A stretch of DNA of 34,044 bases from Chitinispirillia bacterium. GTDB taxonomy: Bacteria > Fibrobacterota > Chitinivibrionia > Chitinivibrionales > Chitinispirillaceae. The stretch lies in assembly GCA_009786415.1 (NCBI GenBank), contig WQTH01000027.1:1-34044 (forward strand), read 5' to 3'. Both the position numbers and the translations under genes were made by a program. The notes beneath the pieces are model-generated. The model did not search any database and was not told the DNA's origin. It worked only from the letters and a program-made list of their open reading frames with translations. Positions 724 to 26,526 of the stretch are shown one piece after another (within the stretch, counting starts at the first letter, position 1; each line of letters opens with the position of its first letter).

Positions 724-1272
724 TTATTGGTCGAATAGCGATAGCTGGGCGGTGGATTGGTATTTTTCGGAAATTACCTGCCTTACGTGCCGCTCGGAGA
801 CGCCGCAGGCGAGAGCCAATTCTTGGGTGTTGGTGCCGTTAAATGACCTTTCAATGTGCTTTCTAATGGCTATTGAAAGGCCGTTACGGGGGATGTAAAA
901 GCGGCATCCGGGAAAGTTGTGAGCCAGACATTGGGCCGTTTCAGGGCCACATAGCTCGGCAACCCTATCGAGGTGCTCGTTCGAGGATCTGCCGGCAGTT
1001 GGAGCCGGCTGCTTGGAGAGGTGGATGACATCCTCGCGGTTTAGGCCGAGGCGGCCAGCTACCGTGGCGGCGTTGTAGCCGTTGTAATTATCTTTGACGT
1101 ACTGCCAATCATCAGCCTTTTTGGCCGATGCCGGGATGTAGATTTCCAACCCCGGCATCTTGGACATAAGCGCCAACGCGACATCCAGACCACAATGCAG
1201 GGCTACCTCCTGCATTTGCTCCGACTGGATATCGGTGGCGCTTATACCGGCCAAAAGAGGTTCAGCCAACAT
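724..1272 (-). CDS. mor: Mor/C-family transcription activator with two tandem Mor-type domains
   Basis: Two repeats, each with an ...CG...PG...YIP...NG.N...LA...G...V... pattern characteristic of Mor/C proteins. Confidence 0.75.
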   Translation of the reverse strand: MLAEPLLAGISATDIQSEQMQEVALHCGLDVALALMSKMPGLEIYIPASAKKADDWQYVKDNYNGYNAATVAGRLGLNREDVIHLSKQPAPTAGRSSNEHLDRVAELCGPETAQCLAHNFPGCRFYIPRNGLSIAIRKHIERSFNGTNTQELALACGVSERHVRQVISEKYQSTAQLSLFDQ

Positions 1273-1897
1273 CTACTGCCGCCAGATCGAGGTTGATCTG
1301 CTTGTACTCGTCGGTGTCGCCGACCCGCTTATATATCCTTATATAAGCCTTGGAGCCGCTGATCGTGATTGACTCCTTGATCGCCTCCATCGCTTTCATC
1401 CAGAGCGGGTCCTTGATGTCTACCTTGAGCAATCCCATAATCCTCTGAGTGCTGAGCTTGCCGGCGTTGTTGCTTTTGAACGCGAAGTTTACCAGTTTTC
1501 TTAATTCGTCGGACGTGTCCGATATCCAACTTTCCAGACATTCGTCCAGCAGAGCTTTGGCAGCCTCCAAGGACTCGTCGAAAGTGATGTACTCGTTGAT
1601 CGAACGCTGGACGCGATAGCGGCCATCGTAGGAGGTGAGGGTGATGTTGCCTTTGAGCCCGCCTACCTTAGCATCGAACCGCTCCGCGCTCAGCTCGACG
1701 AACGCCTTAACATCGGCCATCGCCTTACTCTTGAAGGCGGCGAGCTCTTCGTTCAACAACAGGGCTTTCGCCACAATCTCATATACGAGGTTGTTACGGG
1801 CCTTGTCTATCTCCTTTACGATGTCCTCCGGGACAAGACAGCCGCGGTGATCCATCATAAAGCCTTCCGGTATTTGTACTTCTTTTGAGCCTGACAT
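1262..1897 (-). CDS. DUF3164-like Mu-phage early protein
   Basis: IPEGFMMDHRGCLVPEDIVKEIDKARNNLV start and position next to GemA/MuB. Confidence 0.75.
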   Translation of the reverse strand: MSGSKEVQIPEGFMMDHRGCLVPEDIVKEIDKARNNLVYEIVAKALLLNEELAAFKSKAMADVKAFVELSAERFDAKVGGLKGNITLTSYDGRYRVQRSINEYITFDESLEAAKALLDECLESWISDTSDELRKLVNFAFKSNNAGKLSTQRIMGLLKVDIKDPLWMKAMEAIKESITISGSKAYIRIYKRVGDTDEYKQINLDLAAVDVG

Positions 1898-1901
1898 AAT
1901 T

Positions 1902-2375
1902 CTACACCTCCTCGGTTTTGGGTTGTTGTTTTTTCATTGCCACCAGCGTTCGGATCACCTTCCCGACGCGCTCACGCGGCAGCCATCTGATGTGGCTGAT
2001 TTGAAAGCGCTTTTCGAGAAAGTTATTGAGAGCTTGCGCCCTCTCAGATTCCGGTGCGCGGGAGACTTCGTTCCACATTGCGCGGATCATCGCCTGCTGT
2101 TTGAAGGTCGCCACTTCGTTACTGTCCGCACAGCGTACCTTGCCGCTTAAAACATCGTCCGCGCTTGCCGTCTTTACGCGCCGGGGCGGGAACGATAGGG
2201 CACCGCCGGGCACTAACCGCATCAGCGCCTCAATCAGTTCCTTCACTCCCGGCCCTGTCAGTTCTTTCGATGATTCCACACCGAAGCCCGAAAGCAGGGC
2301 ACGGTAGTCTTCGTCCGCCATGCCTATCTTCGACTTCAGCGTGTGGATCATCGAGAGTTGGCCACGTGTCGCCAT
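1902..2375 (-). CDS. gemA: GemA-like regulatory protein (DUF1018)
   Basis: MIHTLKSKIGMADEDYRALLSGFGVESSKELT and IRWLPRERVGKVIRTL resemble GemA. Confidence 0.8.
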   Translation of the reverse strand: MATRGQLSMIHTLKSKIGMADEDYRALLSGFGVESSKELTGPGVKELIEALMRLVPGGALSFPPRRVKTASADDVLSGKVRCADSNEVATFKQQAMIRAMWNEVSRAPESERAQALNNFLEKRFQISHIRWLPRERVGKVIRTLVAMKKQQPKTEEV

Positions 2376-3343
2376 CAGGACATTGCCTCCAACTTTACGA
2401 ACTTGCCGGCAGCCTCTATGACACTTTCGTCGATCGCCATATTATTAATTTTCGCAATGTGCTGTGAGCGTGTTACTATTTTGAACAGGCGGCGGGTGTT
2501 CCCGGCGCTTTCCCGGTGGAATGCCTTGTGAAGTGTCTCGCCGCAATCCGGCAGCAGTACCGCGAGTATTGCCGAGGTATCTTTCTCCTTGAGCGCGATC
2601 AACTTTATAGCGATACCTACCCGGCTGTAGAGCTGTGCGTACTCACCGTTGAGACCTTTAAGATTAGCCAATAATTTGGGCATACCTGTCAACAGAATGC
2701 CGATGCCGGTTTTGTCGTGGAGACGGCGCAGTAACTCCAGCGCCTTGTACGGGAGCTGTTCGGCCTCGTCTACAATCAACAAGCGACCGCTGCCTTTGAG
2801 CCGACGGCAGCACTCTACGAAGACATCATAAAGATTCCCGCGGGACGTGCCGCCTATAAGTTCACGCAATTCGCCAAATAACACTTTAGCCGTATAGCAC
2901 GGGTCGGCCTCAATAAGGATTACATCGGAGTGCCGCCTTGTGTATTCGCGTACCGACTCGGTTTTACCCAAACCCGCCGCTGAATAGCAGACACCTATTT
3001 CGCCGACTACGTGGCAGTTACGCGCGATTTCAAAGACACGCTTAGACGCCGACGTTTCGATGAACCCCCTTTCTATCTTTGGCGATGCCGACTTGTCTTT
3101 TTCGCGTGCCATAACCGCGAGGACCTTCTTGTAAACAGCCAATACATCACCTGGATACTTACCCGCCGCGAACTGGCTAAGCGTAGCCGCGCTGATACCG
3201 GCAGCCTTAGCCATTGTGGCCAGAGACCAGTCACGCTCTTCAAGCCACGTTTTCAGGTCGTCCCTGAATTCAGCCACGCTGAACTTCTCTGTTGCGTACT
3301 GCGCTTTTCCGCCGCGCACTCCATCATTAATGTCTACCATCAC
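2375..3343 (-). CDS. B: MuB-like transposition target AAA+ ATPase
   Basis: N-terminal HTH, Walker A-like SAAGLGKTES, Walker B-like LLIVDEAEQ; adjacent to transposase. Confidence 0.88.
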   Translation of the reverse strand: MMVDINDGVRGGKAQYATEKFSVAEFRDDLKTWLEERDWSLATMAKAAGISAATLSQFAAGKYPGDVLAVYKKVLAVMAREKDKSASPKIERGFIETSASKRVFEIARNCHVVGEIGVCYSAAGLGKTESVREYTRRHSDVILIEADPCYTAKVLFGELRELIGGTSRGNLYDVFVECCRRLKGSGRLLIVDEAEQLPYKALELLRRLHDKTGIGILLTGMPKLLANLKGLNGEYAQLYSRVGIAIKLIALKEKDTSAILAVLLPDCGETLHKAFHRESAGNTRRLFKIVTRSQHIAKINNMAIDESVIEAAGKFVKLEAMS

Positions 3344-3401: not shown

Positions 3402-5450
3402 CTATCCCGCTTTAAATATTGCAACTTCGTTAAAATCGTCTTCATCGTCACGATCTGCTTCCAGACCGAATAACGGCTTCTTGCGCGGTGGGACAATACT
3501 GTCCATACCGAGGATGGACATATCTTGTAGACCCTCCTCCTTCTGTGCCGCTATTTTGGCGAGTACTTCCGCCTTGCTCGTTATCATTATATGGCCGTCC
3601 GTATTATGGATATTAGAAAGCTCTGTACCGTCATCATTACTTGCCGCTTTAGCGTATACGCCTAACCCGCGAAGCGCAACCTCCGGCGTAATGACGCAAC
3701 TTGGAACAGCCGCTTCTTTAGTAGCCTTAATCACATAACCCTTCATATTGGAAGCCTCCTTCAACTTGTCCCGACCGATGTCATCATCAACATTGAAAGG
3801 AACATCCCAAACCGCTTTAGCGCTACAGATAAATGCGCAGGTCGCCGCATCGTATACATCTGCATAGTCTAACGCGCTATGCAGGCGCTCAAGATAAACC
3901 TTTCGGCGGTCTGGCGGTTGAATGGTTAGTGGTATATACGTACCGCGCAAATCACTATCTCTAATTCCACCGCGAGCCATAGTGAGGTCTTTGGATGTTC
4001 GATAGCAGAGTTTATCGAGTTGGTCTATAGGTATCTCCCGCACCTTACCATCTTTTCTTGCAATAGGGTACTCTTCATTCCAAATCTGAGACGGCGACAG
4101 CCCCTTATGGTGGCCCGACGTGAACGGCATCTTTGGCTGGACGTTTACAACATAATCTTGAAGACGCCTTACAAATTCGTCAAAAGTCTCTATTGCGCCG
4201 GACGCTACATTTTTTTCAAGGCACTCCGGCTTTTTAGCTACGCTTCCACCACAAAACCCTTTGAACCACACGGATGTACTCGCGTGAAGCGTTCTAAACA
4301 TCCGCTCGATATGCTTTGTTTGCGGGTTGTACGGGATTGCAAAGTGAACCTTCATACCCAACTGATGAGCCATAGAAAGGCGCTTGCTGCCCTTCCGGCC
4401 CCCTGTGAGGTCTTTTGCGCGAAAGTCTTTGCCATTATCCACGAGAATACTACTGGGCGCTCCATACTCTGACATTGCCGCGTAAATAGCGGTAAAAATA
4501 TCGTCTGCGTTAGGGTCGCCAATATAAGCAAAAGCCGAAAGTATCATCCGCGACTTAACGTCTGCCCAAACAGTAACCCACGCGCGCTGGGGCTTTTTAT
4601 AACCATTAACCATCACGAGAGTATCAGCCAGAAAATGGTCGGCCATCCAATACTCTCCGGCAAGCACTCCGCTATCATCCCTTTTGATATACGGGGCGCA
4701 TTTTCTGTTATATGCGGCAAAACCCTCTCTTGCCAAAACGGCCACAGAGTTGGGGGTTCTGTTTTTATACGCACGGTCAAGCGTACCCACCTTTGGAAGC
4801 CCCGTCAAGCTACTGCCGTTCTCAATCTCCAAGCCTGCGGCAACTTGCCACGCTTTGGCCTTGCTGACCCCGGTGTTCATTTCTATGCAGGCTTTATAGG
4901 TTTCATACATAGACTCAGGGGCAGTCGTCTTGCCGCGATTTTTGCCATAGCCACCGAGCAGGGCGGCTTTGCCACCCTCGCGGAACTTTTTGAGCTTCGC
5001 GTATACTGTCTTAACAGTAATCGTTTTTTCGGGATGTTCTTGGTTGTATTGCTCAACGACCGCCGCAAGCGTCAATGTTCCCCTGTGTTTTTGGTAATCG
5101 GAGACAATCGGGTAGTAAGTATCAAACTGCACCCTGTTGTAATGCGGGGCGTTATTGTAGAGTTCGAGGAATTCCATATCTAACCCCGCACTCGGCGTAT
5201 TTGCTGCCATGGGTGGGCCTTGAACAGCTGTAGGCTCCACTTCACAAACCGGGGCACACTCTTCCTGCGCCGGTTCTTGGGGGACAATGGCGTGGCAACG
5301 CTTTTGGATGTTGCCGGGGAGAGTAGACAATAATACCTCCGCCCCGGCAGGGGACGGGCGATAACGCACGGGCCTGCCGTGCGTATCACGGAAAGCCTGT
5401 GCGGTTACTCCCATCTTGTCAGCGACATCTTTAAGCGCTACCCACACCAC
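3402..5450 (-). CDS. A: MuA-like DDE transposase
   Basis: DDE pattern: MADHFL, ILVDNGKDF, KHIERMFRTLH; Mu-type N-terminal HTH. Confidence 0.92.
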   Translation of the reverse strand: MVWVALKDVADKMGVTAQAFRDTHGRPVRYRPSPAGAEVLLSTLPGNIQKRCHAIVPQEPAQEECAPVCEVEPTAVQGPPMAANTPSAGLDMEFLELYNNAPHYNRVQFDTYYPIVSDYQKHRGTLTLAAVVEQYNQEHPEKTITVKTVYAKLKKFREGGKAALLGGYGKNRGKTTAPESMYETYKACIEMNTGVSKAKAWQVAAGLEIENGSSLTGLPKVGTLDRAYKNRTPNSVAVLAREGFAAYNRKCAPYIKRDDSGVLAGEYWMADHFLADTLVMVNGYKKPQRAWVTVWADVKSRMILSAFAYIGDPNADDIFTAIYAAMSEYGAPSSILVDNGKDFRAKDLTGGRKGSKRLSMAHQLGMKVHFAIPYNPQTKHIERMFRTLHASTSVWFKGFCGGSVAKKPECLEKNVASGAIETFDEFVRRLQDYVVNVQPKMPFTSGHHKGLSPSQIWNEEYPIARKDGKVREIPIDQLDKLCYRTSKDLTMARGGIRDSDLRGTYIPLTIQPPDRRKVYLERLHSALDYADVYDAATCAFICSAKAVWDVPFNVDDDIGRDKLKEASNMKGYVIKATKEAAVPSCVITPEVALRGLGVYAKAASNDDGTELSNIHNTDGHIMITSKAEVLAKIAAQKEEGLQDMSILGMDSIVPPRKKPLFGLEADRDDEDDFNEVAIFKAG

Positions 5451-9830: not shown

Positions 9831-10571
9831 TCAGGCTGGATCTGAACGCCGGAACTGGAACGAGAACGCGGGGATGGTGACGTTGGATACCGCCGCTGAG
9901 AATCGGAAAGTTAATGTACCGTTTAGTCCAAATGTTGCCGTCGCCACAAGGTAACCGCTGGCGTCGGTGACAGAAAACGGAACCGCCACCACATCGGTCG
10001 GCCGAAAAGCCAGCGGAACAGTACCCTCCTGAAAGAAATCCCTAGTTAGGCCAGCGGCGTTCACAGTGACCCCCGAAAGTCTGGGGATGGACACCGTGAT
10101 CAGGCTCGTCAGCGAGACATCATCTGTGAATACCTTCAAAAACGATGCGTACTTGCCGTTGAACGCGGGGTTGTCTGACTCTACCATCTGTTCCGTATAG
10201 TGGCTGTGGAAAGGGAGGTTGTACACCGGCAGCACTCCATCTACGTCTGTCGAGAGGCGAACCTTCCCCTGATTCCCCTCGCCGTGCCGGTGCGGCCCGT
10301 AGTTCTCCGCAGGCAGTATCCCCTGCACCTCGTCGGACAGGGTAATCTTCCCCTGAGTTGCGCCGAGGCCCGGTGTGCCGGTATGACGGTGCATACCCTG
10401 ATTCGCCGCCGGCAGCTGGCCGGTAACCTCTGCAGCGTTCGTCAGATTGATCTTATTGGCGCTGCCGTCCTCGTCTTTCCCGTCGTGGCGGTGGCCGCCG
10501 AGATGCCTGAAGATGCGGTTCAGGAACTCCGCCGTTACGATCGTTCCGTGCTCAAAGAATGTTTTAGGCAT
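9831..10571 (-). CDS. Tail fibre / collar-like protein with repeated HxH motifs
   Basis: Repeats around HRHDG, HRHTG, HRHGE and HSH with LPAxN spacing; near the lysis genes. Confidence 0.6.
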   Translation of the reverse strand: MPKTFFEHGTIVTAEFLNRIFRHLGGHRHDGKDEDGSANKINLTNAAEVTGQLPAANQGMHRHTGTPGLGATQGKITLSDEVQGILPAENYGPHRHGEGNQGKVRLSTDVDGVLPVYNLPFHSHYTEQMVESDNPAFNGKYASFLKVFTDDVSLTSLITVSIPRLSGVTVNAAGLTRDFFQEGTVPLAFRPTDVVAVPFSVTDASGYLVATATFGLNGTLTFRFSAAVSNVTIPAFSFQFRRSDPA

Positions 10572-10610
10572 GTTTAAACCTCCTCATGTTACCGACAAGT
10601 CCGGTCATGG

Positions 10611-11081
10611 TTATTTCCTCCCGTTGTATGCAAGTGAATAGTGGTTACCATCGTTGAATCTGCCGCCCCAGCAACCGCCGAGAGATTCCCAATACTCGCC
10701 GAGTTCTCGGTGATCAGCCGTGGCAGGCAGATACTTTCCATCTTTGAACAAGTTGAGGTCGATTGCCAGCCCATCGAAGTGCAAGCTTGACGCCTTGCGC
10801 TTGCCGCCGCCGCAGACGGTGCAACTCCTATCCGTCCGGGCGTTGCCGAACGTCAGCGTGTAACCGCGGTTATACGCGAACGCAATCAGCAGGCCGACCA
10901 TGTACGTGAACCGGAACTGCCACGGGTTCATCGGCGTCAGCTTTGTAGGCAAGGGCGGCGGGGCGGGCGTAGCAGCTGGTGCTGCCGTAGCAGCTGCGCT
11001 ATTGGTCTGCTTCACGGGGGTGAAGAGCGGCGCAAGCGCCGCCCTCACCTTATCGCACTCTCCGTTATTCTTGCACAGCAT
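10611..11081 (-). CDS. M15-type peptidase endolysin
   Basis: SLHFDGLAIDLNLFKDGKY...GGCWGGRFNDGNHYSL matches M15 (VanY-like) zinc-peptidase motifs; start set at MLCKNN. Confidence 0.75.
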   Translation of the reverse strand: MLCKNNGECDKVRAALAPLFTPVKQTNSAAATAAPAATPAPPPLPTKLTPMNPWQFRFTYMVGLLIAFAYNRGYTLTFGNARTDRSCTVCGGGKRKASSLHFDGLAIDLNLFKDGKYLPATADHRELGEYWESLGGCWGGRFNDGNHYSLAYNGRK

Positions 11082-11262
11082 CGCCGGCCCCCTCCCCGCC
11101 CTTACCGGACGCATCTACTATGCCCTGCGCGACCACGTAAGCGGCCGAGACGACGGTGGACAAAACCGGCTCGCCCGCGGCAACGCCGGTGATGATACCG
11201 GCGATCGTCACCCACAGCTTACGACTGCCAAGCTTCCTGAAAAACTTTCTCATACTGCACAC
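11065..11262 (-). CDS. Small membrane protein, holin candidate
   Basis: Hydrophobic segment LWVTIAGIITGVAAG...VVSAAYVVAQGIV; overlaps the endolysin start. Confidence 0.5.
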   Translation of the reverse strand: MCSMRKFFRKLGSRKLWVTIAGIITGVAAGEPVLSTVVSAAYVVAQGIVDASGKGGEGAGDAVQE

Positions 11263-11325
11263 TCCTGTGAAAATGGTTTTGGTTATAGTTTACGGATGCG
11301 CCTGTCAAGCGCATCCATATTATCC

Positions 11326-12126
11326 TCATACAAACCAGCTTCCCCTAATCCACTCACCACCGCCGCTGTAGTATTCTACGGCGAGGTGCGGGCGGCTACC
11401 CTGACCGTCAAGTTTTAGCCCGATACGCCAGTCCCACTCGGTGAACGCTGCTCCGGTAACGTCCTGCATATAGTAAGTCCATGCCCCGTCAGTATAAATG
11501 CACCTGCCCGGCGTTGTGGAAAGTGGGTTCTGTACCGTAATCTCTCCGGGAGATAGGCTGGCAAATCTGTTTTGCGGGTTTTGTGCGACAAAACCTGCTG
11601 CGGACATCTTGCTAACCAAACTGCCTGCTGGTTGTGCCACATATGTGGTCACATCGCCCGCTGCAAGCCCCAAATGCCTATGGCCTACATTATACCCCCT
11701 GTTGTGCAACGATATCAAATCATTGCCTGCTCCTCCGCCGGGCGGGTTCGACAGCACAATAAACGGGCCTGTATTGGCATCGCCGACATATCGCTCCCCT
11801 GTTATCTGTCCACGCGATTTCAGGGTTAATGAGAAGTGGTACTCGCCGGCAAGAGAGCGGAGGGCAATTTCGTTGGTGTCAAACGCCCACCCCCAGTGGC
11901 CGGGCTCAAGTCGGTCATCTTTGAAGTTCTCCTTCAAGTCCTCCACTATGCCTGGCACTGCCGCGCCGCCTATAAAATGATACTTCCCGTTCAGGTCGCG
12001 GCAGACGATTTCGTTAGTGTCGCCAGCGCGCGCCCACTGTCCGGGCTTAATGTGGTCATCTTTGAAGTTTTCCTTCAAGTCTTCTATCCTAATAACATCC
12101 GCGACTAATACTTTTGCGTTAATCAT
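11326..12126 (-). CDS. Putative tail fibre/receptor-binding protein with tandem internal repeat
   Basis: EDLKENFKDDHIKPGQWARAGDTNEIVCRDLNGKYHF repeated as EDLKENFKDDRLEPGHWGWAFDTNEIALRSLAGEYHF. Confidence 0.6.
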   Translation of the reverse strand: MINAKVLVADVIRIEDLKENFKDDHIKPGQWARAGDTNEIVCRDLNGKYHFIGGAAVPGIVEDLKENFKDDRLEPGHWGWAFDTNEIALRSLAGEYHFSLTLKSRGQITGERYVGDANTGPFIVLSNPPGGGAGNDLISLHNRGYNVGHRHLGLAAGDVTTYVAQPAGSLVSKMSAAGFVAQNPQNRFASLSPGEITVQNPLSTTPGRCIYTDGAWTYYMQDVTGAAFTEWDWRIGLKLDGQGSRPHLAVEYYSGGGEWIRGSWFV

Positions 12127-12207
12127 ACCTACCCCGGTCCTTGTTTTGATAATAGTTTTAAGTTATACACAAACCGGCGTGCCGTGTGTGCCCGCCGGAT
12201 ATATCCT

Positions 12208-14556
12208 TTACGTCAATGTTATGTGCCCCGGCATATCCACCGGCTTTCCGAAGAGGCCGGGGAGTTTGCCGTGCTCTACTGTCCAGCCGTTTTCGGGTGT
12301 AAAACGCCCGCCAATTGTTGGGTCGGCCATGACCTCAGCGGCTGTGATGTCGGCACCATCTTCACCGCCGGGGCCTTTGTCAGTATTATGCGTGCCAGCC
12401 ATGCCGGCAAACGCCACATTGGTGTTAAACACCGACACATCTTGAACACCTTTATGGCCAATTCGGCGTGTTGGGCGAAATTCATGTATTGTAGCTGATA
12501 CGCTAGGGTTAAGTGCGGCACAATCAGTAACCGTCCCGCCCTCGGATACGCCCACAATACCACCGAGATAACTACGTGAGGAATAGCCATGAACACTACC
12601 GATACTGTAACAGCGGGTTATAGTGCCCCGATACACCCCGGCAACTCCGCCAGAGCCGTCAAAAAACGAATCGGCACTTACATTCACTGCGGCCACGCAA
12701 TCTGATATTGTTGATGCGGGGTTACTGTTAGCCCCAATAATACCGCCGAGGCGTACCTGGCCATTAACAGCCCCGATAACATAACAGCGTAATATTCGCT
12801 CAGTGCCCGAAGTTGCTATCCTCCCAACAATACCACCAATATCCCACCCACCGGCATCTGTGTTAATACTCCAGTCCACCGCGCAGTCGGTAATTGTAAT
12901 GTCATCACCATGCACCCACCCGGCAATGCCGCCGACATAAGAAATATCCAAATTATGAAAAGTGTGGTTGCACGTCACAAGACAACTTTGCACTATACCA
13001 AGCCCAGCGTATATTTCCCCGAACAATCCTCCAACGTACCCAGTGATAGCCACTATATCACCGGAGAAGCTGCAATGGCTGATTGTTATGTCATAGCCAA
13101 GTACTACACCTCCCAATCCACCTGAGCGAGTTGTTGCATTAATACTGCCGTCAACATGACAATTTGTAAGCTCAAATGTATTAGCCTCCACGTTCCCTAC
13201 AATACCGCCTAACTCAGTATCTTGAGAAAAATCAGCATGGATGTTTACCTGACAGTCCGTAACCGTTACCCTGTCGCCATGGAGGCTGTTTCCAATAATA
13301 CCGCCAACGCGCCGCTCCACGTAGCCCACAGCATCAAAGTTGACACGACAATTTGTAACTGCCGTATTCTCGCTCTCTGACTGGCCAATAATACCACCCA
13401 CGCCCCTGCCGCCAGTAATCGTGATGTCAACACGACAATTTGTAACAACCGTATTCTCGCTGTAAGCATACCCGATAATGCCGCCAATGTTAGAGCTCAC
13501 GGTATCAATCCGGCCACTTACACGACAATCCGTAACGACCATACTCCCCCCGTCGGCAAGTCCGATAATGCCGCCGGTATTATGTCGTCCATCAAATTTA
13601 ATATCCACGCCGGCCATAATAAGATTCTTTATTGTGCAATCATGGCCGACCCCAAACAAGCCGTAACCGGCATCCCACCAATCATGACCGCCGTCTTCGT
13701 GCATCGTGAGGCCATGTATGGTGTGCCCGGCCCCATCAAACGTGCCGCGAAACGCTGAGTGCACCCAAGAAGGTTCACCAGGCATCCAGCCGTGGGTAAT
13801 CACTATACTGCCGTCCTCCAACCGATACGGCCAGTCGAATCCCACATCAGGGATGCGCAATCTGCCGCTATCGGCGCTGTATTCCAAAACGTCCACCTCA
13901 AAGAACTCCGGCTGTTCGAGCTCAGCATTCCACCATGCGACGTAAAGCGATACCTTGCCGTCATCGCGGAACTGCAGCATGTACTGCCAGCCCACCCACA
14001 CATCGTTCGGCGCGTTAATCAGGGTATTCGCCGAGGGTACTACCGGCAATCCCGTTGCCATATTAAAGCGGTGCAGCGTGTGGGTCATTTCCACATCTTC
14101 ACCCGGCACCTCATGCCACCCCCCATTGCCCGCCGGCACCCAGCCACGCCCTCCAGAAAAGCCCGATAGGTCGATGTCGGCGGTCAGTGTTATCTTCTTA
14201 CCCTCAAACGTGTCCACGCCCACCACCTCGGCATCGTACACGAACTCCCCGTTTATGATCTGCGCCACCTCGGCGAGTTCCAGCGCCGAGCCCACAAAAT
14301 ATTCTGTAGGGCCGCTGTCCATGTACCAGTGGCGTTTGGGGACGACAGGCTGCCCCTTTTCGATTATCACCACATCCGCCGAACCGGTCTCCCTGACTAT
14401 GACCGCAGAGTTGCCGGTTTCGACTATCACGTCGAAGTCGTCGTCTGTCACATCAAAGCCGTCGTCCGGGCGCTTTGGCGGCCGACGATCGCTGGTAACG
14501 CGGAAGTAAGTGCCGGGCTTGCGCTGGATCACCGCCGCACCCCATTTAAAACCCAT
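12208..14556 (-). CDS. GLUG-motif repeat protein, putative tail fibre/adhesin
   Basis: Many GGIIG/GGIVG...VTNCRV-type repeats of about 25-30 aa. Confidence 0.7.
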   Translation of the reverse strand: MGFKWGAAVIQRKPGTYFRVTSDRRPPKRPDDGFDVTDDDFDVIVETGNSAVIVRETGSADVVIIEKGQPVVPKRHWYMDSGPTEYFVGSALELAEVAQIINGEFVYDAEVVGVDTFEGKKITLTADIDLSGFSGGRGWVPAGNGGWHEVPGEDVEMTHTLHRFNMATGLPVVPSANTLINAPNDVWVGWQYMLQFRDDGKVSLYVAWWNAELEQPEFFEVDVLEYSADSGRLRIPDVGFDWPYRLEDGSIVITHGWMPGEPSWVHSAFRGTFDGAGHTIHGLTMHEDGGHDWWDAGYGLFGVGHDCTIKNLIMAGVDIKFDGRHNTGGIIGLADGGSMVVTDCRVSGRIDTVSSNIGGIIGYAYSENTVVTNCRVDITITGGRGVGGIIGQSESENTAVTNCRVNFDAVGYVERRVGGIIGNSLHGDRVTVTDCQVNIHADFSQDTELGGIVGNVEANTFELTNCHVDGSINATTRSGGLGGVVLGYDITISHCSFSGDIVAITGYVGGLFGEIYAGLGIVQSCLVTCNHTFHNLDISYVGGIAGWVHGDDITITDCAVDWSINTDAGGWDIGGIVGRIATSGTERILRCYVIGAVNGQVRLGGIIGANSNPASTISDCVAAVNVSADSFFDGSGGVAGVYRGTITRCYSIGSVHGYSSRSYLGGIVGVSEGGTVTDCAALNPSVSATIHEFRPTRRIGHKGVQDVSVFNTNVAFAGMAGTHNTDKGPGGEDGADITAAEVMADPTIGGRFTPENGWTVEHGKLPGLFGKPVDMPGHITLT

Positions 14557-14699
14557 TTAAAAACGTTTAAGAAATTTCCGGCGTCCGTTTGGGCGGCGAG
14601 CGGGCAAACGCGCCCTAAAGGGCCTCTATGCGAGCCGCCCCGGATACCGCCACTACTTAAAATTTTTTGTGTACGCATCCGCCCCTCCCCATTACGCTG

Positions 14700-15176
14700 C
14701 TATTGTTTGGCGATGTACCTGTCGAGCACATCCATCATATCCTCTACGTCCTCGTCCTGCACGACTAAGAAAGGCCGCGCCGGGATCGTTACCTTGCGCC
14801 CGCGTCCCGCCTGACCGCCGAACTGGTGGATCGCACCGTACCGCTTGTTGGTGCCGACGGTCACGGCGTTGCCCTGCACGGTCTTTGAAATGCTCGCGGC
14901 GAGGCCGCCCTGCGACATATCCAAAATCCTCCCCGGCCACTTGCCGCGCTTCGCCCGCGCCGCTTTCGTGCTGTCCGCGAGGTCCGCCCACCGCGTGCCG
15001 CCGCCCCGCCAGCTGCCGGCAGAGCCGTAACGCCCGCCGCGCTGGAAGTTCTCCTCGACGGAAGAGAGGAGAATCTCGCCGCAGACGGACAGCGGAGCGC
15101 TGAGGTCGGAACCGGCGGCGGCCAGCTTCTTGAGCCGGGACAGGACGGGGGCGGCGTCTACTGAGATTTTAAGCAT
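14700..15176 (-). CDS. Mu gpG-like virion morphogenesis protein
   Basis: GAIHQFGGQAGRGRKVTIPARPFLVV is typical of this family; start set at MLKISVD. Confidence 0.8.
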   Translation of the reverse strand: MLKISVDAAPVLSRLKKLAAAGSDLSAPLSVCGEILLSSVEENFQRGGRYGSAGSWRGGGTRWADLADSTKAARAKRGKWPGRILDMSQGGLAASISKTVQGNAVTVGTNKRYGAIHQFGGQAGRGRKVTIPARPFLVVQDEDVEDMMDVLDRYIAKQ

Positions 15177-15360
15177 GATACCGCATCTTTCTAAAATGTT
15201 CCAGTTGTACATTCTGCGCCGCGATGTGTTCCAGCAGGTCGGTGACGTCAGCCCGAACGATAGCCATTGCGCCAGTCGTTATAAGCGAATCCGGGCATTT
15301 TATACCGTAACTGCGGGATAGCCGCTCTTCAATCTCACTAATCCGTTTTTTGGTTAGCAT
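15169..15360 (-). CDS. Hypothetical protein
   Basis: 63 aa ORF overlapping the gpG-like gene start. Confidence 0.5.
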   Translation of the reverse strand: MLTKKRISEIEERLSRSYGIKCPDSLITTGAMAIVRADVTDLLEHIAAQNVQLEHFRKMRYHA

Positions 15361-15364
15361 GGTT

Positions 15365-15574
15365 CTACCTCCCCTTTCTGCGTTTGAGCCGAGACCAAGC
15401 CTTCACCGCGATATGTACCGGCCAGACGATAGCAAGCGTTATGTAATATGCGCTGCACGACATAGCTATCTTGTGGGCACGGTCAGAATCATAGTCTCCC
15501 GATACCGTCCACAAGATCAGATTAACGCTGTGTACCGCAAAAACCGTAATTAACACGATCCAATACCATTCCAT
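15365..15574 (-). CDS. Small membrane protein
   Basis: MEWYWIVLITVFAVHSVNLILW...ITLAIVWPVHIAV; SD AAAGGGGCAGGG before the ATG. Confidence 0.55.
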   Translation of the reverse strand: MEWYWIVLITVFAVHSVNLILWTVSGDYDSDRAHKIAMSCSAYYITLAIVWPVHIAVKAWSRLKRRKGR

Positions 15575-15657
15575 ACCCTGCCCCTTTCCACCTTCTATAT
15601 TATATAAGTACAAAATTTATCTTGTTTTTTCGCCGTCCGTGGCGTATATTATGTATA

Positions 15658-15732
15658 GGCTCCGTTACTCGGAAAATCCGCTTGCCGAGGGCAGCGTGCC
15701 AGATGTGGGAACCAGCGGTCCCATACGGAGCC
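15658..15732 (-). ncRNA. Candidate 75-nt multi-branched structured RNA
   Basis: 8-bp closing stem (15658-15665/15725-15732) enclosing three hairpins (15668-15672/15685-15689; 15690-15693/15697-15700; 15706-15710/15719-15723). Confidence 0.35.
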
Positions 15733-15733
15733 A

Positions 15734-16963
15734 TTATATTTTCCCCCTGATAACCCGTACTGCTTTCTGTAAAACATTCCGTACGTTATTTTCTGTAACC
15801 AGGTGCATGGACAACAAAAACACCTCCCCCTTGTTTGTTCGAGCTGTCTTAAACACCGTTTTATAATTGTCATCGCCGACCCTGTTAAAAACCACAAGGT
15901 TTTCAGCTCCGTTTCCATCAGCAACAATAACCGCCGCGTCAGCCTGCTCCAAATGAAGCTGCGTCTGCTGATAATCCGCCATCGAAAGCTCCGGGTGCTT
16001 TGACGTGTTCTTCCACAAGGTTTCAGCCGACAGTCGTACCGTATGGGTTTTAGCCCCTATGGCTTCCATGTAATCGTCGGGCAGAATCGCTATAGGTATC
16101 GCCCCGCCGATCATCCCTTTTGCGTCAAAGAACCGCTTGTAGTCCGGCCCGCTGAAGCTGTCGCGTATAAACGCCTTTGCGTCATCCGGGTGATATACGC
16201 TCAAGTTCGGCATCCACGCCTCTTTCCCGGCGTTGTAGTTCCAGCCCGGCCCTGTCCACATGACTTTCCCGTTCCCAAGATTTACGCCGCTGACTTTTTC
16301 AATCCGCGCGTTCTCCCCCTTGCCGACTACGACCTCCCGCTCGACTACCCGGCCCTCGGAGCTTTCCGGCTGTACGCCTGCCCGCTGTAGCTGTTTATCC
16401 GACAGGCTGCGGACACGGCACCTGCACCCCCAGCCGTTGGGCGGGTAGAACTCGTTCCATATCGGATCGTCCGCGCGAAAGATGCGCCCGTGCATAGCGC
16501 GGTGGCCGTCTCTCGTCTTGCCGTCCATCACCGCGAGGTATTGCAGATACGGCAAATCCTCCGCAGCTTCCATCTGTCCCTTGTACCGCCCGGCCATGTA
16601 CGCCGTTTGCAGGTTTGTGCGGTAGATGGTTTTCAATCGCCGGGAGCCTACGGTTGTTACAACTTCCCCCGTCTTCTTATCAACGACATCACCCAGCCAC
16701 CCGTGTCTGCTTAACTTTGGCCTTATCTCCTTTTGAAACTGCTGGAAGGTCATCCCGGTCTCCAGCGCCTTTTCGACGGCTTTACGTATGTCCCTCAAAA
16801 GATCGACCTTCATGGCTTTCGCCACGGTAAACGCCCTGGCGTGAGTGTCTTTCCACATATCGTACCAGTTCCACGAGAACCCGTAGCCCTTGCGCTTCAT
16901 GTATTCGATAGCGGCGGCGGGTTTTTGCTTGAAGGCGTCGAGGAGTATCTTAGGGTCGCTCAT
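15734..16963 (-). CDS. Mu gpF-like minor head (MuF) protein with C-terminal nuclease/toxin-like extension
   Basis: Central DGKTRDGHRAMHGRIFRADDPIWNEFYPPNGWGCRCRVRSLS motif of MuF; C-terminal ~110 aa extra domain; start ATG 16961-16963 overlaps the portal stop. Confidence 0.85.
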   Translation of the reverse strand: MSDPKILLDAFKQKPAAAIEYMKRKGYGFSWNWYDMWKDTHARAFTVAKAMKVDLLRDIRKAVEKALETGMTFQQFQKEIRPKLSRHGWLGDVVDKKTGEVVTTVGSRRLKTIYRTNLQTAYMAGRYKGQMEAAEDLPYLQYLAVMDGKTRDGHRAMHGRIFRADDPIWNEFYPPNGWGCRCRVRSLSDKQLQRAGVQPESSEGRVVEREVVVGKGENARIEKVSGVNLGNGKVMWTGPGWNYNAGKEAWMPNLSVYHPDDAKAFIRDSFSGPDYKRFFDAKGMIGGAIPIAILPDDYMEAIGAKTHTVRLSAETLWKNTSKHPELSMADYQQTQLHLEQADAAVIVADGNGAENLVVFNRVGDDNYKTVFKTARTNKGEVFLLSMHLVTENNVRNVLQKAVRVIRGKI

Positions 16964-18453
16964 TGTGCGCTCCCCCCGCTTGATATTCTGCCCCACGTTT
17001 CGCCAAGGAGCATTGTCTTTTCGGCGGTCTTTTGGATTTCCGCCGTATCCATATCACCGTACAGGCCGGGCAGCGCGGCTATAACATCATCAAAACTTTC
17101 GGCGCTGTTAATGGCTTCTAAAGCGGGGTTTAAAACGTCTTCAATCTGCGCTTGAATCGTCTCGTCCGGCAGCTCTCCGGCGAGCGTGTCAACGGCCAGC
17201 TGGAATTCCGCCTGCGTCGTTGCCGGAGCGCGGCGGGCAGGTGCCGCCGCGAACTGCGGCGGCGCGAGCGGATCGGGCTGTTCTATAATCTCTATCTCGT
17301 CTTCCGCGAAGTCGTACTTGTCCACGAAGTATTTTTTCGTGAGCCTGACCTTGCCTGTGTTCATCAGCATCGTATCGCGTTCGGCGCGTTGTTTGTCTAT
17401 GTCCTTTTCGTCATAGAGTTCGAACCGGGGGCGCTCTACGCCGAGGGACGGGTTGAGTTCGTGTATGTAGGCGATCAGGGTGTTCATTGTTTCTTCGACC
17501 ATCTTCTGGTCGTCTTCGACGAGGTCGGCGCGGACGGCGGCGGCCATGTCGTCGCCGCCGAGGCGGCCCGGTGTGGATGTTGCCCCCGCGCTGTGTCCGA
17601 GTATGGCGGTGGAAATCTCGCCGTCGTGGTAGGCCGCGAAGTCGCTGTAGGCGTCGGACGATCCGGTTACGTTGACCTGCGTCGCGTCGATGCTGCTGTC
17701 GTCGGGGACAACGGCAATGGCATCCTGCACCATCCCCGCCAAACTGTTTAGCAGATCGTTGCGGTCGTCTTTCGACGCGCCCCTCGGCAGCTTGCCGACT
17801 ACGTGCGGCATTCCGAACTTCTCGATGAATGTCGCCCAGAAGCGCAGGCCGCCTTTTTTAAACGTGACCGGCCAGAAACACGAGCTGTACGCGCCCTCGC
17901 CGTACGGGTTCTCCCAGCTGGCGCGGTGCTGCGTCAGCAGGAACTTGTAGTCATCGACCGGCACGCCCCGCATGTCACCTGCCGAGGAGCGCAGGCGCAG
18001 CTCGCCGTGTTCGGCGCCAAACGCGAACCATATCCGCGGGCGGCCGAAGACGCGGCAGGGCAGCAGCAGATCGCCCTGCCGCTCCCAAACTATTTCTGAT
18101 ATTTGATAGCCGTATCCCCACGCCTCGCACATCTCGCGGGTGATGTTGCGGATGTTCAGTTTTTTGAACGCCGCTTCCACGGTCTCGGCTGCGCGTTCGG
18201 TTGCGTTGTCGCGGCTTATGGCCCAGCGCTTTTTGGTAACGGCGGCTTCGCGGCTTTGGGCGCAGCTCGACACGTGGTTCTCGCGGCGTATCTCGTTGAG
18301 TACGGTTATGGGCTGGCCCAGCTTGCGCAGCACCGGGTCGGGGTTGGGCAGGTTGGCGTAGAGCCGCCCCCACATATTGAGCAAGTTGCCTGCGGCGATC
18401 TCGCGGGTGAGATAGCGCGCCATGCTGCGTGATGCGAAGTCTATACTGTTCAT
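16960..18453 (-). CDS. Portal protein (DUF935, Mu gp29-like)
   Basis: Position after large terminase; WAISRDNATERAAETVEAAFKKLNIRN, PYGEGAYSSCFWPVTFKKGGLRFWATFIEKFGMPHVVGKLP motifs. Confidence 0.88.
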   Translation of the reverse strand: MNSIDFASRSMARYLTREIAAGNLLNMWGRLYANLPNPDPVLRKLGQPITVLNEIRRENHVSSCAQSREAAVTKKRWAISRDNATERAAETVEAAFKKLNIRNITREMCEAWGYGYQISEIVWERQGDLLLPCRVFGRPRIWFAFGAEHGELRLRSSAGDMRGVPVDDYKFLLTQHRASWENPYGEGAYSSCFWPVTFKKGGLRFWATFIEKFGMPHVVGKLPRGASKDDRNDLLNSLAGMVQDAIAVVPDDSSIDATQVNVTGSSDAYSDFAAYHDGEISTAILGHSAGATSTPGRLGGDDMAAAVRADLVEDDQKMVEETMNTLIAYIHELNPSLGVERPRFELYDEKDIDKQRAERDTMLMNTGKVRLTKKYFVDKYDFAEDEIEIIEQPDPLAPPQFAAAPARRAPATTQAEFQLAVDTLAGELPDETIQAQIEDVLNPALEAINSAESFDDVIAALPGLYGDMDTAEIQKTAEKTMLLGETWGRISSGGSAQ

Positions 18454-18539
18454 AGTTTATCCCTCTTTAATAAGATTGCGGTCCAGACGCCGATAAAACA
18501 CACTATTATAGACCAACTGAGTTTGTCTAATCCGCCCAT
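18450..18539 (-). CDS. 29-aa single-TM microprotein MGGLDKLSWSIIVCFIGVWTAILLKRDKL
   Basis: TAATG overlap with the terminase stop and ATGA overlap with the portal start; hydrophobic core; below the ORF-track cut-off. Confidence 0.6.
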   Translation of the reverse strand: MGGLDKLSWSIIVCFIGVWTAILLKRDKL

Positions 18540-19966
18540 TAATAATACCCCATGGAAATATTGTCCGTAAACCTGTTAAACCTGTCCAGCACGACCCCGC
18601 GCGATTCAGCCCATGCCGGGCCTGACGGGCCGCCCGTTTTGGCGTGTATGGCGAGCGCGAGCGCCCAGAAGCGGTCGGCGTGTCCGGTTTCGTCTGTGCG
18701 CTCTGCGTCGAAGCGTATGTTGCCGGCAGACGTGACCATACGCTTGATGCTGTGTATCGACTCGCGCGTTGCGGCGTCATTCGGTAGAATGACACGGCGG
18801 TCTTCGAGCGCGTTGCGCGTACCCACGGCCAGCGCTTCCTTGTTGCCGCTCGTAAACGTAACGCCCTCGACCGTGGATTTTCCGTAGCGCTCCTGCGCGG
18901 CCTCGGTAAGCGGCAGGCCGATACCGGTCTGGTCTATGCAGATGCGCCGCAGATGCGGCAGGCGCATGACGAGGTCGAGGTACGCCTCCTGTATTTTGAA
19001 CGCGGTGCGGTCGAACTCCTTAACAACGCGCGTGGCGAGGAACGCGCCTACGTCCTCTAATACCCAAATGACCGACAGATCGCGCTTGCGGCCTATGTCC
19101 CACCCCGCGTAAAGCGCGTTTGTGGTAATGGACAGGTCGTCGAGTGAGCGGAGCGTGGTCGCGTTTTCGCACGCCTCTATCATTTCGTATGTGATGTAGG
19201 CGGTCGTGGCGTCGATAGGTTCGGCCATGTAATCTTCGTTGAAGATATCGCTGTCCTGGCAGGAGCTGCGCAGCCGCTCGATATACTCGTTGCGCTCCTG
19301 CTCCGACGTTTTGCGGTTGAACACTTTATCGCAAAGCCCCTCGCCGACCGCGTCCACTATGGTTACGCGGTGCAGCGACCAGTCGGACTGGCCTTTGCGG
19401 ATCCGCTCGCAAAATCGGTAAAAGAGCGTGCTCTTGCCTTTATGGGTTGACAGTATGCGTATTGGGTATCCCCAAACCCCCGCCGCGGGCTGTGCGCCGG
19501 ACCACATGGCGCGCTGGTCTTTGTGCAGCGCGGCCTCGTCCCATACGATTTTGCCGCCTTTGGAGTTAAACGCCGTAGGCGCGGACGACAGCGCGAGTAT
19601 CTTCCCGCCGTTCGCGAATTCGAGGACGCTGGCCTTGACGCCGTTCTTTTCGTCTATAACCTGTATGCCCATATCTTTCGCCACAACATTGAACACTTCC
19701 GCATAACGCTGGCAATATTCGATATACTCCTTGCCGGCCTCCTCGTCTTTTGATGAAAAATAGACGCGCTTTATAGGTCGCCCAGGCGTGTACTCCTTGC
19801 GCGTAACGATATCGCGCACGTCTTCGTAGGCTTGCGTATACGTAGCGCCGATACGCCGCGACTTCTCCCACACCTTTATGGGAGATTCGTCATCAATCCA
19901 CTCCCGTTGATACAGCAGGAAGTAATTGTATATCTCGTGTTCCGTGCCCGCGCCGTTTTTGGTCAT
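18539..19966 (-). CDS. Terminase large subunit (Mu gp28-like)
   Basis: KVWEKSRRIGATYTQAYED (Walker A-like), KIVWDEAALHKD (Walker B), YAGWDIGRKRDLSVI nuclease motif; start at MTKNGAG. Confidence 0.9.
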   Translation of the reverse strand: MTKNGAGTEHEIYNYFLLYQREWIDDESPIKVWEKSRRIGATYTQAYEDVRDIVTRKEYTPGRPIKRVYFSSKDEEAGKEYIEYCQRYAEVFNVVAKDMGIQVIDEKNGVKASVLEFANGGKILALSSAPTAFNSKGGKIVWDEAALHKDQRAMWSGAQPAAGVWGYPIRILSTHKGKSTLFYRFCERIRKGQSDWSLHRVTIVDAVGEGLCDKVFNRKTSEQERNEYIERLRSSCQDSDIFNEDYMAEPIDATTAYITYEMIEACENATTLRSLDDLSITTNALYAGWDIGRKRDLSVIWVLEDVGAFLATRVVKEFDRTAFKIQEAYLDLVMRLPHLRRICIDQTGIGLPLTEAAQERYGKSTVEGVTFTSGNKEALAVGTRNALEDRRVILPNDAATRESIHSIKRMVTSAGNIRFDAERTDETGHADRFWALALAIHAKTGGPSGPAWAESRGVVLDRFNRFTDNISMGYY

Positions 19967-19974
19967 AATCCTGC

Positions 19975-20382
19975 CTACGCCCCCATAATTTCTTTGACTC
20001 GTTTTGCGAGGTCTTCCGGGGATACCTGTTCCTCCGGTACCGCCGGCTCCTCGCTTTTGGCCTTGCTTTCGTACGTGTACAAATTTTTCACTGCGCTTAC
20101 AAGGTTCGTTAGAGCGTGGAGAGACTGCGGGGACAGGTCGGTCTCGCCATCGCAATCTCTAATCATGCGGTCGGTAACCTTGTTTATAAGCGTGTGCAGC
20201 TTCTCCCTTGTTGTCGCGTGTGAGCTGACAACCTCGTCGCGGGTCTGCTTCCAGTTCTCGGAAGAAGCCCACGAGCGGATGGTTTTTTCGCTCCGGCCCG
20301 TGCGCTCGGCGATCTCCTCGAACGTTGCGCCCTGATAGCAGTACAGGTCGCGCGCCTCCTCCTTGCCCTCGCCGTGCTTCAT
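19975..20382 (-). CDS. Terminase small subunit-like protein with HTH
   Basis: ARDLYCYQGATFEEIAERTGRSEKTIRSWASSENW; directly upstream of the large terminase. Confidence 0.75.
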   Translation of the reverse strand: MKHGEGKEEARDLYCYQGATFEEIAERTGRSEKTIRSWASSENWKQTRDEVVSSHATTREKLHTLINKVTDRMIRDCDGETDLSPQSLHALTNLVSAVKNLYTYESKAKSEEPAVPEEQVSPEDLAKRVKEIMGA

Positions 20383-20627
20383 TCTTCTCCCAAGTCTATC
20401 TTGATGGACGTGATAAGGGCCTTCAGCTCGCGGAGCTTTGCCACAGACTCCTTGATGCGCACCGCGGCGGCCAGAATCTGGTCGCTTTTAAGTTCCGCCT
20501 TATCAACGTACTTATCTGCACCGGCGCGGATAATGGCAATATCGCAGTTTATGCCCGTCTCTGTTGCACCCGCCAGCTCAACGGCGACGGCCAGTCTGCC
20601 GCGCAGTACGGCGATCTCACTATTCAT
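20379..20627 (-). CDS. Hypothetical Mu-like late protein
   Basis: 82 aa ORF overlapping both neighbours by a few nt. Confidence 0.6.
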   Translation of the reverse strand: MNSEIAVLRGRLAVAVELAGATETGINCDIAIIRAGADKYVDKAELKSDQILAAAVRIKESVAKLRELKALITSIKIDLGEE

Positions 20628-20965
20628 TTCATATCCTTTGTTATTATGGTTAGCTGATGCGCGAGTGATTCCAGCGCCGAGGTGTTCCGGTCTGCCAGCG
20701 CGTAATGCCTGTTCATCTCACGCTGATGGGAGTCTATCGTGCGCGCCTGCTCCTCCTTGTGCATATTGACCAGATTCTGCATGGCGCGTTCTTGCAGCGT
20801 TATCATCGAATCCCACTTGACCATGTGTTCCTCGCGCTCTTTGTCCTGCCGGCGAGACTGCCACTTAATATAGAGCGCAAAACACACCACCATAGCGCCC
20901 GATATGCCCACCGGGAGGATCGTGCCGATCCCATTAACTAAAGTGGCTACATCTGATAAATCCAC
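20624..20965 (-). CDS. DUF2730-like small membrane protein
   Basis: GTG start at 20963-20965 with SD AAAGGCGG; one TM segment followed by charged helix, as in Mu-type DUF2730. Confidence 0.6.
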   Translation of the reverse strand: MDLSDVATLVNGIGTILPVGISGAMVVCFALYIKWQSRRQDKEREEHMVKWDSMITLQERAMQNLVNMHKEEQARTIDSHQREMNRHYALADRNTSALESLAHQLTIITKDMK

Positions 20966-21171
20966 GTCATCCGCCTTTCCGCGACCTGTTAAAAGTGATA
21001 GCGGGATAAACCCGCTATCAATAAATGTAACTCCACTGCGCCCTAAAAAACTTCTGAACCGTTCAGCAAAATAAGGGCATACCGATGGGGTATCTTTATC
21101 GTGTAGGGCCACTTGATCGGCGGCTGGCCACCGCGATGGAATAATAACACGGTTTAGCGAAAGGGATAGAT
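20966..21171. promoter_or_regulatory. Divergent late control region
   Basis: Hairpin TGATAGCGGG-ATAAA-CCCGCTATCA (20996-21020) and palindrome CTGAACCGTTCAG (21054-21066) between divergent late operons. Confidence 0.55.
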
Positions 21172-22389
21172 ATGTCGAAGTTTTTGCCTCTTATGCGCAC
21201 GGGTACATTCAAGGACCGTCACGGCGGGATTTACAATATTACGAAGGAGGTTCTTAATAAGATTGTATCGACTTTCGACGCAAGCCGCCCGCCGGCGATA
21301 CTGGTGGGGCATCCCGACACGGACAAAGCCCCGTCGTTCGGGATCGTTGAGGCGCTCAAGATTGCCGGCGATCAGCTGCTGTTCAGGCCGGGCAAGGTGG
21401 TCGCGGAGTTCGCCGCTTTGGTACGCCGCGGCGGGTTCCCCGGCGTGAGCGCCGGACTGACGCGGGATTTGTCGCGGTTAGACCACGTCGCGATGCTCTC
21501 GGCGCAGAGCCCGGCCATAGATGGATTAAAACCCATCGCGGAGTTTTGCGCGCTTGACCCTAAAGAGCGTGTGCTGATTGATGTAACCGAATCGGCCGCC
21601 CAGAGCCTTGCCGAGTTTGCGTACGCGCCGGATTGGTGGGTAATAGACAGGATGCAAGACATCGGCGAGATGTTCCGCGCCATAAAGAACTACATCATCG
21701 AGCGCAGCAGCGTGGAAGCGGCGGACGCGCTGATACCGGAGCATCGGATAAACAGCTTCAAGGAGAATCTGCCGGTGCTTGAAGAGGAGCGCGAGGCGGA
21801 ATTCAGCGCTTTAAAGCCGGCTGTCGAAAATACGCCTGCTGAGGGTGAACCTCCCGCCGTTGCGGCCAGTAATAATTATGAGGACAAGTACAACGAGCTG
21901 CTGCCCAAGTACGAGGCCGCGCAGAAAGCCCTGTCAGAGTTCACCGCGACGGCCCAGAAGCTGATTGACGAGAAGAAAGCGCTTGAGGACAGGATTGTCG
22001 TGCTCGAATACGATAAGCGTACCGCAGACTTCTCCGCCTTTCTCGAAACAGCCATCAGCGAGGGAAGGATCGTGCCGGGCGAGAAGCCGCGCAGGCTTGA
22101 GGACATGGAAGCGATGTTCATGCAGGGCGGTGCGGAGTTCTCGTCCGATCCAGTAAAATACCCCAAAGCGCTCGACATCTACAAAAACGACATAATGAGC
22201 AGGCCGTGCAAGATCCCGCGGCCCGGAGAAATAACACCCCCGCCTCAGTTTGCGGCCTCTGTTGCGGTGACACCTTCCACCGATGGTTCAGAGATTGGCA
22301 AGCGGGCGGGGGCCTATATCAATGAAATGGCGGCAAAGGGCGTGGCGGTTAGCGCCATTGATGCCGTTAAACATGTACTTAACAATTAA
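21172..22389 (+). CDS. Mu I-like phage protease/scaffold
   Basis: FKDRHGGIYNITKEVLNKIVSTFDASRPPAILVGHPDTDKAPSFGIVEAL; upstream of capsid genes. Confidence 0.85.
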   Translation: MSKFLPLMRTGTFKDRHGGIYNITKEVLNKIVSTFDASRPPAILVGHPDTDKAPSFGIVEALKIAGDQLLFRPGKVVAEFAALVRRGGFPGVSAGLTRDLSRLDHVAMLSAQSPAIDGLKPIAEFCALDPKERVLIDVTESAAQSLAEFAYAPDWWVIDRMQDIGEMFRAIKNYIIERSSVEAADALIPEHRINSFKENLPVLEEEREAEFSALKPAVENTPAEGEPPAVAASNNYEDKYNELLPKYEAAQKALSEFTATAQKLIDEKKALEDRIVVLEYDKRTADFSAFLETAISEGRIVPGEKPRRLEDMEAMFMQGGAEFSSDPVKYPKALDIYKNDIMSRPCKIPRPGEITPPPQFAASVAVTPSTDGSEIGKRAGAYINEMAAKGVAVSAIDAVKHVLNN

Positions 22390-22407
22390 CCATAGGAGAT
22401 AGATGCT

Positions 22408-22773
22408 ATGAATCCGATTTTTACCAAGGGGTACAGGGCGGCGGCAGAGGTCTCGCCTAACCAGATTGTGGCCTGGGCGGGCGGAAGCGTTGCCGGAAGC
22501 GTTACGCCGGCCATGGCCACAACGGACAAACTTGTCGGCGTAACCGGTCTTGTTGGCGCCGCCGAGGGCGGCGTAGCCGATGTCCACCGCATTGGCATTG
22601 CCGAGGTCAGGCTCGGCGGTACGGTTGCGCTGGGCGACGAGATCACTTCCGACGGCAGCGGCTTCGGCGTTACGCTCACCGGCGCCGGCGAGAGCATTGG
22701 CCGCGCGGAGCGGGCCGGCGTCGCTGGCGACATCATTAACGTTTTTCTGAGGCCCCTCACGGCGGCGTCATAA
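22408..22773 (+). CDS. DUF2190-like capsid decoration protein
   Basis: Small Gly/Ala/Val-rich protein between protease and major capsid. Confidence 0.7.
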   Translation: MNPIFTKGYRAAAEVSPNQIVAWAGGSVAGSVTPAMATTDKLVGVTGLVGAAEGGVADVHRIGIAEVRLGGTVALGDEITSDGSGFGVTLTGAGESIGRAERAGVAGDIINVFLRPLTAAS

Positions 22774-22792
22774 CACAGAAAGGATTAAGGCT

Positions 22793-23752
22793 ATGTCTAC
22801 TGAAAAGAAAGTTGAATTTTCCGGCGCGGCGGTCGCGCCGTTTCCCGTCGATCCTGTGCTTACCGCCATTGCGGTGGCGTACAGGAACGAAAAGCTGATC
22901 GCGGACGAGGTGCTGCCGCTTGTGCCTGTCGGGAAGCAGAATTTCAAGTACCGCGTCTTTGAGGCAAAGGACAGCTTCACGGTACCCGATACGTTAGTCG
23001 GGCGCAAGGGCCTTGTCAGCGAGGTTGAATTCGGGTACACCGAAAAAGATGGTTCCACCGAAGGGCACGGCCTTGAGGAGGCAATTCCCAAGGATGACAT
23101 CGACAACGCGCCGGAAGGTTACGACCCTGTCGCCAGAGCAACGGTGTCAACCACGGATTTGGTACTGCTCGGCCGTGAGGTCCGCACCGCGAATCTCGTG
23201 TTTAACGCCGCCAGCTATGGCGCCAAGAACAAGATTACGCTGGCCGGAGCGAATCAGTTCACTAACCCTGACAGCGATCCGATTAAGGTCGTCCTGAGCG
23301 CGCTTGACGCCTGCATTATGCGTCCGAACATAATGGTCATAGGCCACGGCGCGTGGACGGCACTCCGCACGAACCCCAAGATTGTCAAGGCCGCGCACGG
23401 CAACGCCGGCGACAGCGGTACAGCGTCGCGGCAGCAGGTGGCGGAACTGTTCGAGCTCGATAAGATACTCGTCGGCAGCGGCTGGGTAAATACCGAGGCT
23501 AAGGGACAGGAGATGGCCCAGAAACGCATTTGGGGGAATCATATCGCGCTGATTTATCAGAACGCGATGCCCGACGTGAACGGGAAAGTGTCGTTTGGTG
23601 TTACCGCGCAGTTCGGCGAGCGGTTCGTCACATCCGGTTTTGATTCCAAGATCGGGCTGGAGGGCGGCACGAGGATCCGCGTGGGCATGCGCGTCCGCGA
23701 GCTGATCACGGCCAACGACCTCGGCTACTTCATACAGAACGCCGCGGCCTAA
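22793..23752 (+). CDS. Major capsid protein
   Basis: DPVLTAIAVAYRNEKLIADEVLPLVPVGKQNFKYRVF plus position. Confidence 0.85.
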   Translation: MSTEKKVEFSGAAVAPFPVDPVLTAIAVAYRNEKLIADEVLPLVPVGKQNFKYRVFEAKDSFTVPDTLVGRKGLVSEVEFGYTEKDGSTEGHGLEEAIPKDDIDNAPEGYDPVARATVSTTDLVLLGREVRTANLVFNAASYGAKNKITLAGANQFTNPDSDPIKVVLSALDACIMRPNIMVIGHGAWTALRTNPKIVKAAHGNAGDSGTASRQQVAELFELDKILVGSGWVNTEAKGQEMAQKRIWGNHIALIYQNAMPDVNGKVSFGVTAQFGERFVTSGFDSKIGLEGGTRIRVGMRVRELITANDLGYFIQNAAA

Positions 23753-23765
23753 GGAGAACGCCTGT

Positions 23766-24221: not shown

Positions 24222-24223
24222 CG

Positions 24224-26494: not shown

Positions 26495-26526
26495 CGAACT
26501 CGTCGCCATTTTGAAAAGGGGTTAGC

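Follow-up and report, generated by a model that had tools for sequence, protein, structure and literature searches.

A tandem Mor/C-family protein of a Mu-like prophage is predicted to fold as a single-chain pseudo-dimer and bears a beta-clamp-type C-terminal motif

Phage Mu has two activators of the Mor/C family, Mor (129 aa; PDB 1rr7, 9l0y) and the late-gene activator C (140 aa; PDB 9l0x, 9vw8). Each is built of one unit per chain; Mor is a homodimer, and C is a separate protein encoded in the middle operon. The gene found at 724-1272 of the window, that is, of an entire contig of 34,044 bases from a 2.68 Mb MAG, raises the question of whether one polypeptide with two such units can take the place of a Mor dimer, and of Mor and C together. 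The window contains a Mu-like prophage with MuA, MuB, GemA, DUF3164 and Mor genes on the minus strand and Mu-type head genes. As in Mu, the Mor gene comes after gemA and closes the early operon, a position that we counted in favor of a late-activator function. Mu mor lies mid-genome, whereas the tandem gene stops some 180 bp short of the probable left prophage end, and a host gene is found beyond that end. Two divergent sets of structural genes start near 21.1 kb and were taken as the late operons, and a related phage (G019) displays the same gene order across most of its 28-kb contig. All feature coordinates are summarized in Table 1. The early operon also contains a ParB-like partition gene (5482-6741) just upstream of MuA, and a 431-aa plus-strand protein (8481-9776) that adjoins a repressor-like gene strongly matches PHROG 1847, a family of unknown function.

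Table 1. Coordinates of the tandem gene, its parts and the main prophage features in the window
Feature	Position	Strand	Remarks
Tandem Mor/C-family activator gene	724..1272	-	182 aa, ATG start; last gene of early operon
QLSLF (residues 176-180 of 182)	733..747	-	consensus beta-clamp-binding peptide; invariant in three tandem lineages
Mor unit 2 (residues 99-170)	763..978	-	two helices, strand 123-126, helix, HTH
Linker between units (residues 88-98)	979..1011	-	least conserved part
Mor unit 1 (residues 18-87)	1012..1221	-	two helices, strand 43-46, helix, HTH helices 68-75 and 79-87
DUF3164 gene	1262..1897	-	immediately upstream of Mor gene, overlaps its start
GemA-like gene	1902..2375	-	gemA precedes mor in phage Mu too
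MuB-like transposition ATPase	2375..3343	-	
MuA-like transposase	3402..5450	-	
Presumed late operon 1 (packaging, portal, head, lysis, probable tail-fibre)	9831..21112	-	leftward transcription
Dyad CTGAAC-C-GTTCAG, perfect	21054..21066	.	adjoins divergent late start; within coding sequence; no more than a lead
Presumed late operon 2 (protease, capsid, tail genes)	21172..33582	+	rightward transcription

The product of the 724-1272 ORF matched Pfam Mor (PF08765) in two stretches (E 1e-14) and was also matched twice by PHROG 836 (late transcriptional activator, E 4.6e-19). When the halves were scored separately against Pfam Mor, 39.7 bits were obtained for the C-terminal half and 15.9 bits for the N-terminal half, the latter score being under the cut-off of 24.9. 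In profile-profile comparisons the N-terminal half was linked to single-domain Mors (E 1.6e-8, probability 95.5) and, using hhalign, to the C-terminal half (E 3.6e-9, probability 96), while the second unit matched single Mors with E 1.2e-16. Together with the fold modelled by AlphaFold2 in each half, these data link both halves to Mor and confirm that the protein consists of two complete Mor/C units on one chain, as proposed in a preliminary description of this DNA, which had mentioned neither the minus strand of the gene nor its C-terminal QLSLF tail. The protein is a variant architecture inside the Mor/C family.

A single chain of the tandem protein was modelled with AlphaFold2 from a 12-sequence alignment (pLDDT 83.7, pTM 0.68). 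The order helix-helix-strand-helix-helix-helix is repeated twice along the chain, with helices 18-27, 29-38, 49-62, 68-75 and 79-87 and strand 43-46 in unit 1, and helices 99-108, 110-119, 131-143, 149-156 and 160-181 and strand 123-126 in unit 2. The Mor fold, with dimerisation helices, linking strand and HTH, is thus predicted in both halves and not in one only. The two strands are the sole strands of the model, and because DSSP strands need a partner and no others exist, 43-46 pairs with 123-126. In a control, one single Mor modelled alone showed its helices and no strand. Since the strands pair in the tandem model and none is formed in the lone Mor, the prediction supports folding of the chain as an internal pseudo-dimer of its two Mor units, in agreement with the covalent pseudo-dimer envisaged beforehand. 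Foldseek searches of the PDB returned Mu Mor first (9l0y_J), as a weak whole-chain match (E 0.41, probability 0.72), and the top match among viral models was a Mor-family protein. The protein might alternatively act as a homodimer, two chains supplying four Mor units. This would be consistent with the binding of a Mor dimer to the Mu middle promoter (PMC4390567) and with the four activator chains that entries 9l0y (Mor), 9l0x and 9vw8 (C) each hold with RNA polymerase. However, four chains per entry are not necessarily four per promoter, and the strand pairing is already met inside one chain in the single-chain model; we consider the homodimer rather improbable.

An identical protein is encoded by an independent viral contig (IMG/VR 3300027864_001027), and full-length tandem homologues of the same architecture (68% and 60% identity) were detected in two other MAGs, assigned to Chitinispirillales and Chitinispirillia (Fibrobacterota). 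Going by isolate names, the tandem-carrying relatives would come from termite guts. This identical copy on a separate contig, together with the two diverged relatives, rules out, with near certainty, that the repeat is an assembly artefact, a concern raised in the preliminary description, or a chance resemblance, readings for which we found no supporting point. The tandem form was found in 3 of the 168 genomes of the phylum Fibrobacterota, other matches covering one unit. Outside the three lineages and the identical contig, no tandem turned up in scans of contigs from viruses and genomes or of phages and plasmids; these scans detect mainly close relatives, so that distant tandem proteins may escape, and two diverse Mor alignments proved unsuitable for the contig scan because of their divergence. 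The search for other tandem Mor proteins suggested earlier added two MAG lineages, and the phage and plasmid collections covered gave none. Pairwise dN was lower than dS in every part of the protein among the three tandem lineages, clearly so in both HTH units, and the protein is under purifying selection across them. Its best conserved part is the tail (83% and 75% identical to the window tail), with synonymous sites near saturation.

In phylogenetic analysis, units 1 and 2 both fell among Fibrobacterota Mors (86/86). Unit 1 grouped as a single long-branched clade (99/97; 1.75 changes per column), next to which the unit 2 sequences of the tandem phages were placed, with a tentative joining fork. 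This common placement among Fibrobacterota Mors and the single clade of unit 1 fit one old internal duplication before the split of the three tandem phages, and they make it less likely that Mor and C evolved separately and were then fused. The long branch of unit 1, its weak Pfam score and its HTH devoid of the usual ELA would agree with a degenerating copy that serves as dimerisation scaffold only, DNA being bound by unit 2. Proteins in which the N-terminal unit is doubled but the HTH is single, as in Rhizobium phage RR1-B (and by eye in L171 and L169), point in the same direction. Nevertheless, the three lineages have conserved the HTH of unit 1, its dN lies well below dS, and the model shows it as a normal HTH (pLDDT about 90); we judge a pure scaffold function unlikely. 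The RR1-B Mor-like protein resembles the tandem protein by its internal repeat (two Pfam Mor stretches) and its QFDLF tail, but apparently just its N-terminal unit is doubled. This doubling with a single HTH was noticed in L059 (275-649), L171 and L169, on the basis of Pfam in RR1-B and by eye in the others, and such Mor relatives possibly represent an intermediate architecture.

The tandem protein terminates with AQLSLFDQ, of which AQLSLFD is invariant among tandem copies. Bacterial clamp-binding proteins present a C-terminal pentapeptide QL(S/D)LF (PMC9690074), a consensus to which QLSLF at residues 176-180 conforms. Comparable tails of the Q-x-x-L-[FL] type are observed in Mu Mor (QPSLL), Mu C (QPDLF) and BalMu-1 (QLALF), and single-unit Fibrobacterota Mors carry QLSLF or QMSLF. 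The Mor of Faecalibacterium phage FP_Mushu, among the best phage matches (37.5% over 78 residues to unit 2, tail included), has a similar QMSLL tail and differs as a single-unit protein of 109 aa. In a diverse set of 35 Mor/C proteins, made up of Mu Mor and 34 representatives at 60% identity (the non-Mor L173 being left out), 25 had the motif Q-x-x-[LMI]-[FL] within their last 40 residues and 10 lacked the strict motif. Shuffled tails gave 1.6 +/- 1.2 matches with a maximum of 7 in 2000 shuffles, a procedure that disregards common descent, although the linkers surrounding the motif are diverged. Only 0-2 matches were obtained when Q was swapped for N, E, D, K, R, S, T or H, and among other proteins the motif was detected in none of 32 from the window and in 1 of 25 from Mu.

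Judging from this five-residue motif, the most likely docking site of the tail is the peptide pocket on the beta sliding clamp of the host, and another binding partner could be conceived. The tail might for instance touch RNA polymerase, through sigma or the alpha C-terminal domain, since Mor activation requires the C-terminal regions of alpha and sigma70, according to a title cited in PMC4390567. Contact with the polymerase rather than with the clamp seems doubtful to us, because the tail follows linkers of varied length and sequence and yet fits the clamp consensus, and because the motif glutamine is hardly ever replaced by other residues. As for docking on the clamp, host DnaN is present and contains TDGHRLG and a C-terminal LMPLRI, which we take, from E. 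coli DnaN, to be landmarks of the clamp pocket. Host DnaE, as a clamp client, carries a peptide of the same type, QVNLF at residues 978-982 of the ORF; the C-terminus of host MutS contains no copy of the clamp motif, and DinB, sought in the host as a clamp-motif control, was not found.

We would give slightly less than even chances to the wider proposal that Mor/C activators, including Mu Mor and Mu C, carry a beta-clamp-binding peptide which ties middle and late transcription to replicating DNA. Mu middle and late transcription is said to depend on replication, reportedly from work by Marrs and Howe in 1990. If the hypothesis is true, an analogous system is that of T4 gp33/gp55 and the clamp gp45, in which a C-terminal clamp-binding peptide couples late transcription to replication (PMC9690074); the T4 proteins are unrelated and their clamp is phage-encoded, whereas the tandem Mor would use that of the host. 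Insertion-sequence transposases are reported as clamp binders (PMC4549789). A literature search, older Mu papers being outside its reach, returned nothing linking Mor/C to the clamp and nothing on tandem Mor. A clamp-type tail shared across the family, if functional, would explain how a transposing phage that is not known to encode a clamp could couple its late genes to replication. In addition, Mor and C proteins of the Mu group present an N-terminal [DE]-L-F motif (MTEDLF, MQHDLF, NQDLF), seen in L023 (8781-9170 and 9963-10385), L048, L049, L050, L062 and L063, which is reminiscent of a second clamp-type peptide.

Taken as a whole, we find it fairly probable that the tandem protein is the late activator of this Mu-like prophage, a single-chain Mor pseudo-dimer with a clamp-docking tail that replaces Mor and C. 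The activator would be expressed as the last product of the early replication operon, and its duplicated Mor units are predicted to fold on each other. It would then bind close to where the late operons diverge, at about 21.1 kb, and recruit host RNA polymerase to both late operons, substituting for separate Mor and C, while the QLSLF motif present in its tail would dock on the host beta clamp and keep the activator on replicating phage DNA. A single Mor locus was found in the 2.68 Mb MAG (94.5% complete, with no right prophage end found in the contig), as expected from the earlier remark that no separate C gene was seen; the merging of Mor and C roles put forward with it is compatible with this sole locus and may have occurred. 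In a natural single-chain Mor the two halves of a dimeric activator are free to evolve separately, and such a protein would show how one activator replaces Mor plus C.

Mor/C activators bind a dyad ahead of promoters that lack a -35 element, and the preliminary description had proposed that the diverged halves may read asymmetric sites. The perfect dyad located beside the divergent late start is no more than a lead for a DNA site of the activator, its spacing being unlike that of Mu and its sequence coding. At the homologous place the G019 phage has CGGAAC-C-GTTCCG, where two synonymous changes retain the dyad. The surrounding conserved block (21050-21080) was rejected as a late-promoter site because coding conservation of the 20624-21112 protein accounts for it.

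The left end of the prophage was placed by eye from a terminal sequence, TATAG[GC]C...TAGTTTG, that this prophage has in common with two related phages. This probable end (544-709) contains GTAGTTTGGGAA[TA]TT repeats at 557-571 and 692-706 and an inverted copy at 643-659, and all three are likely transposase end sites.
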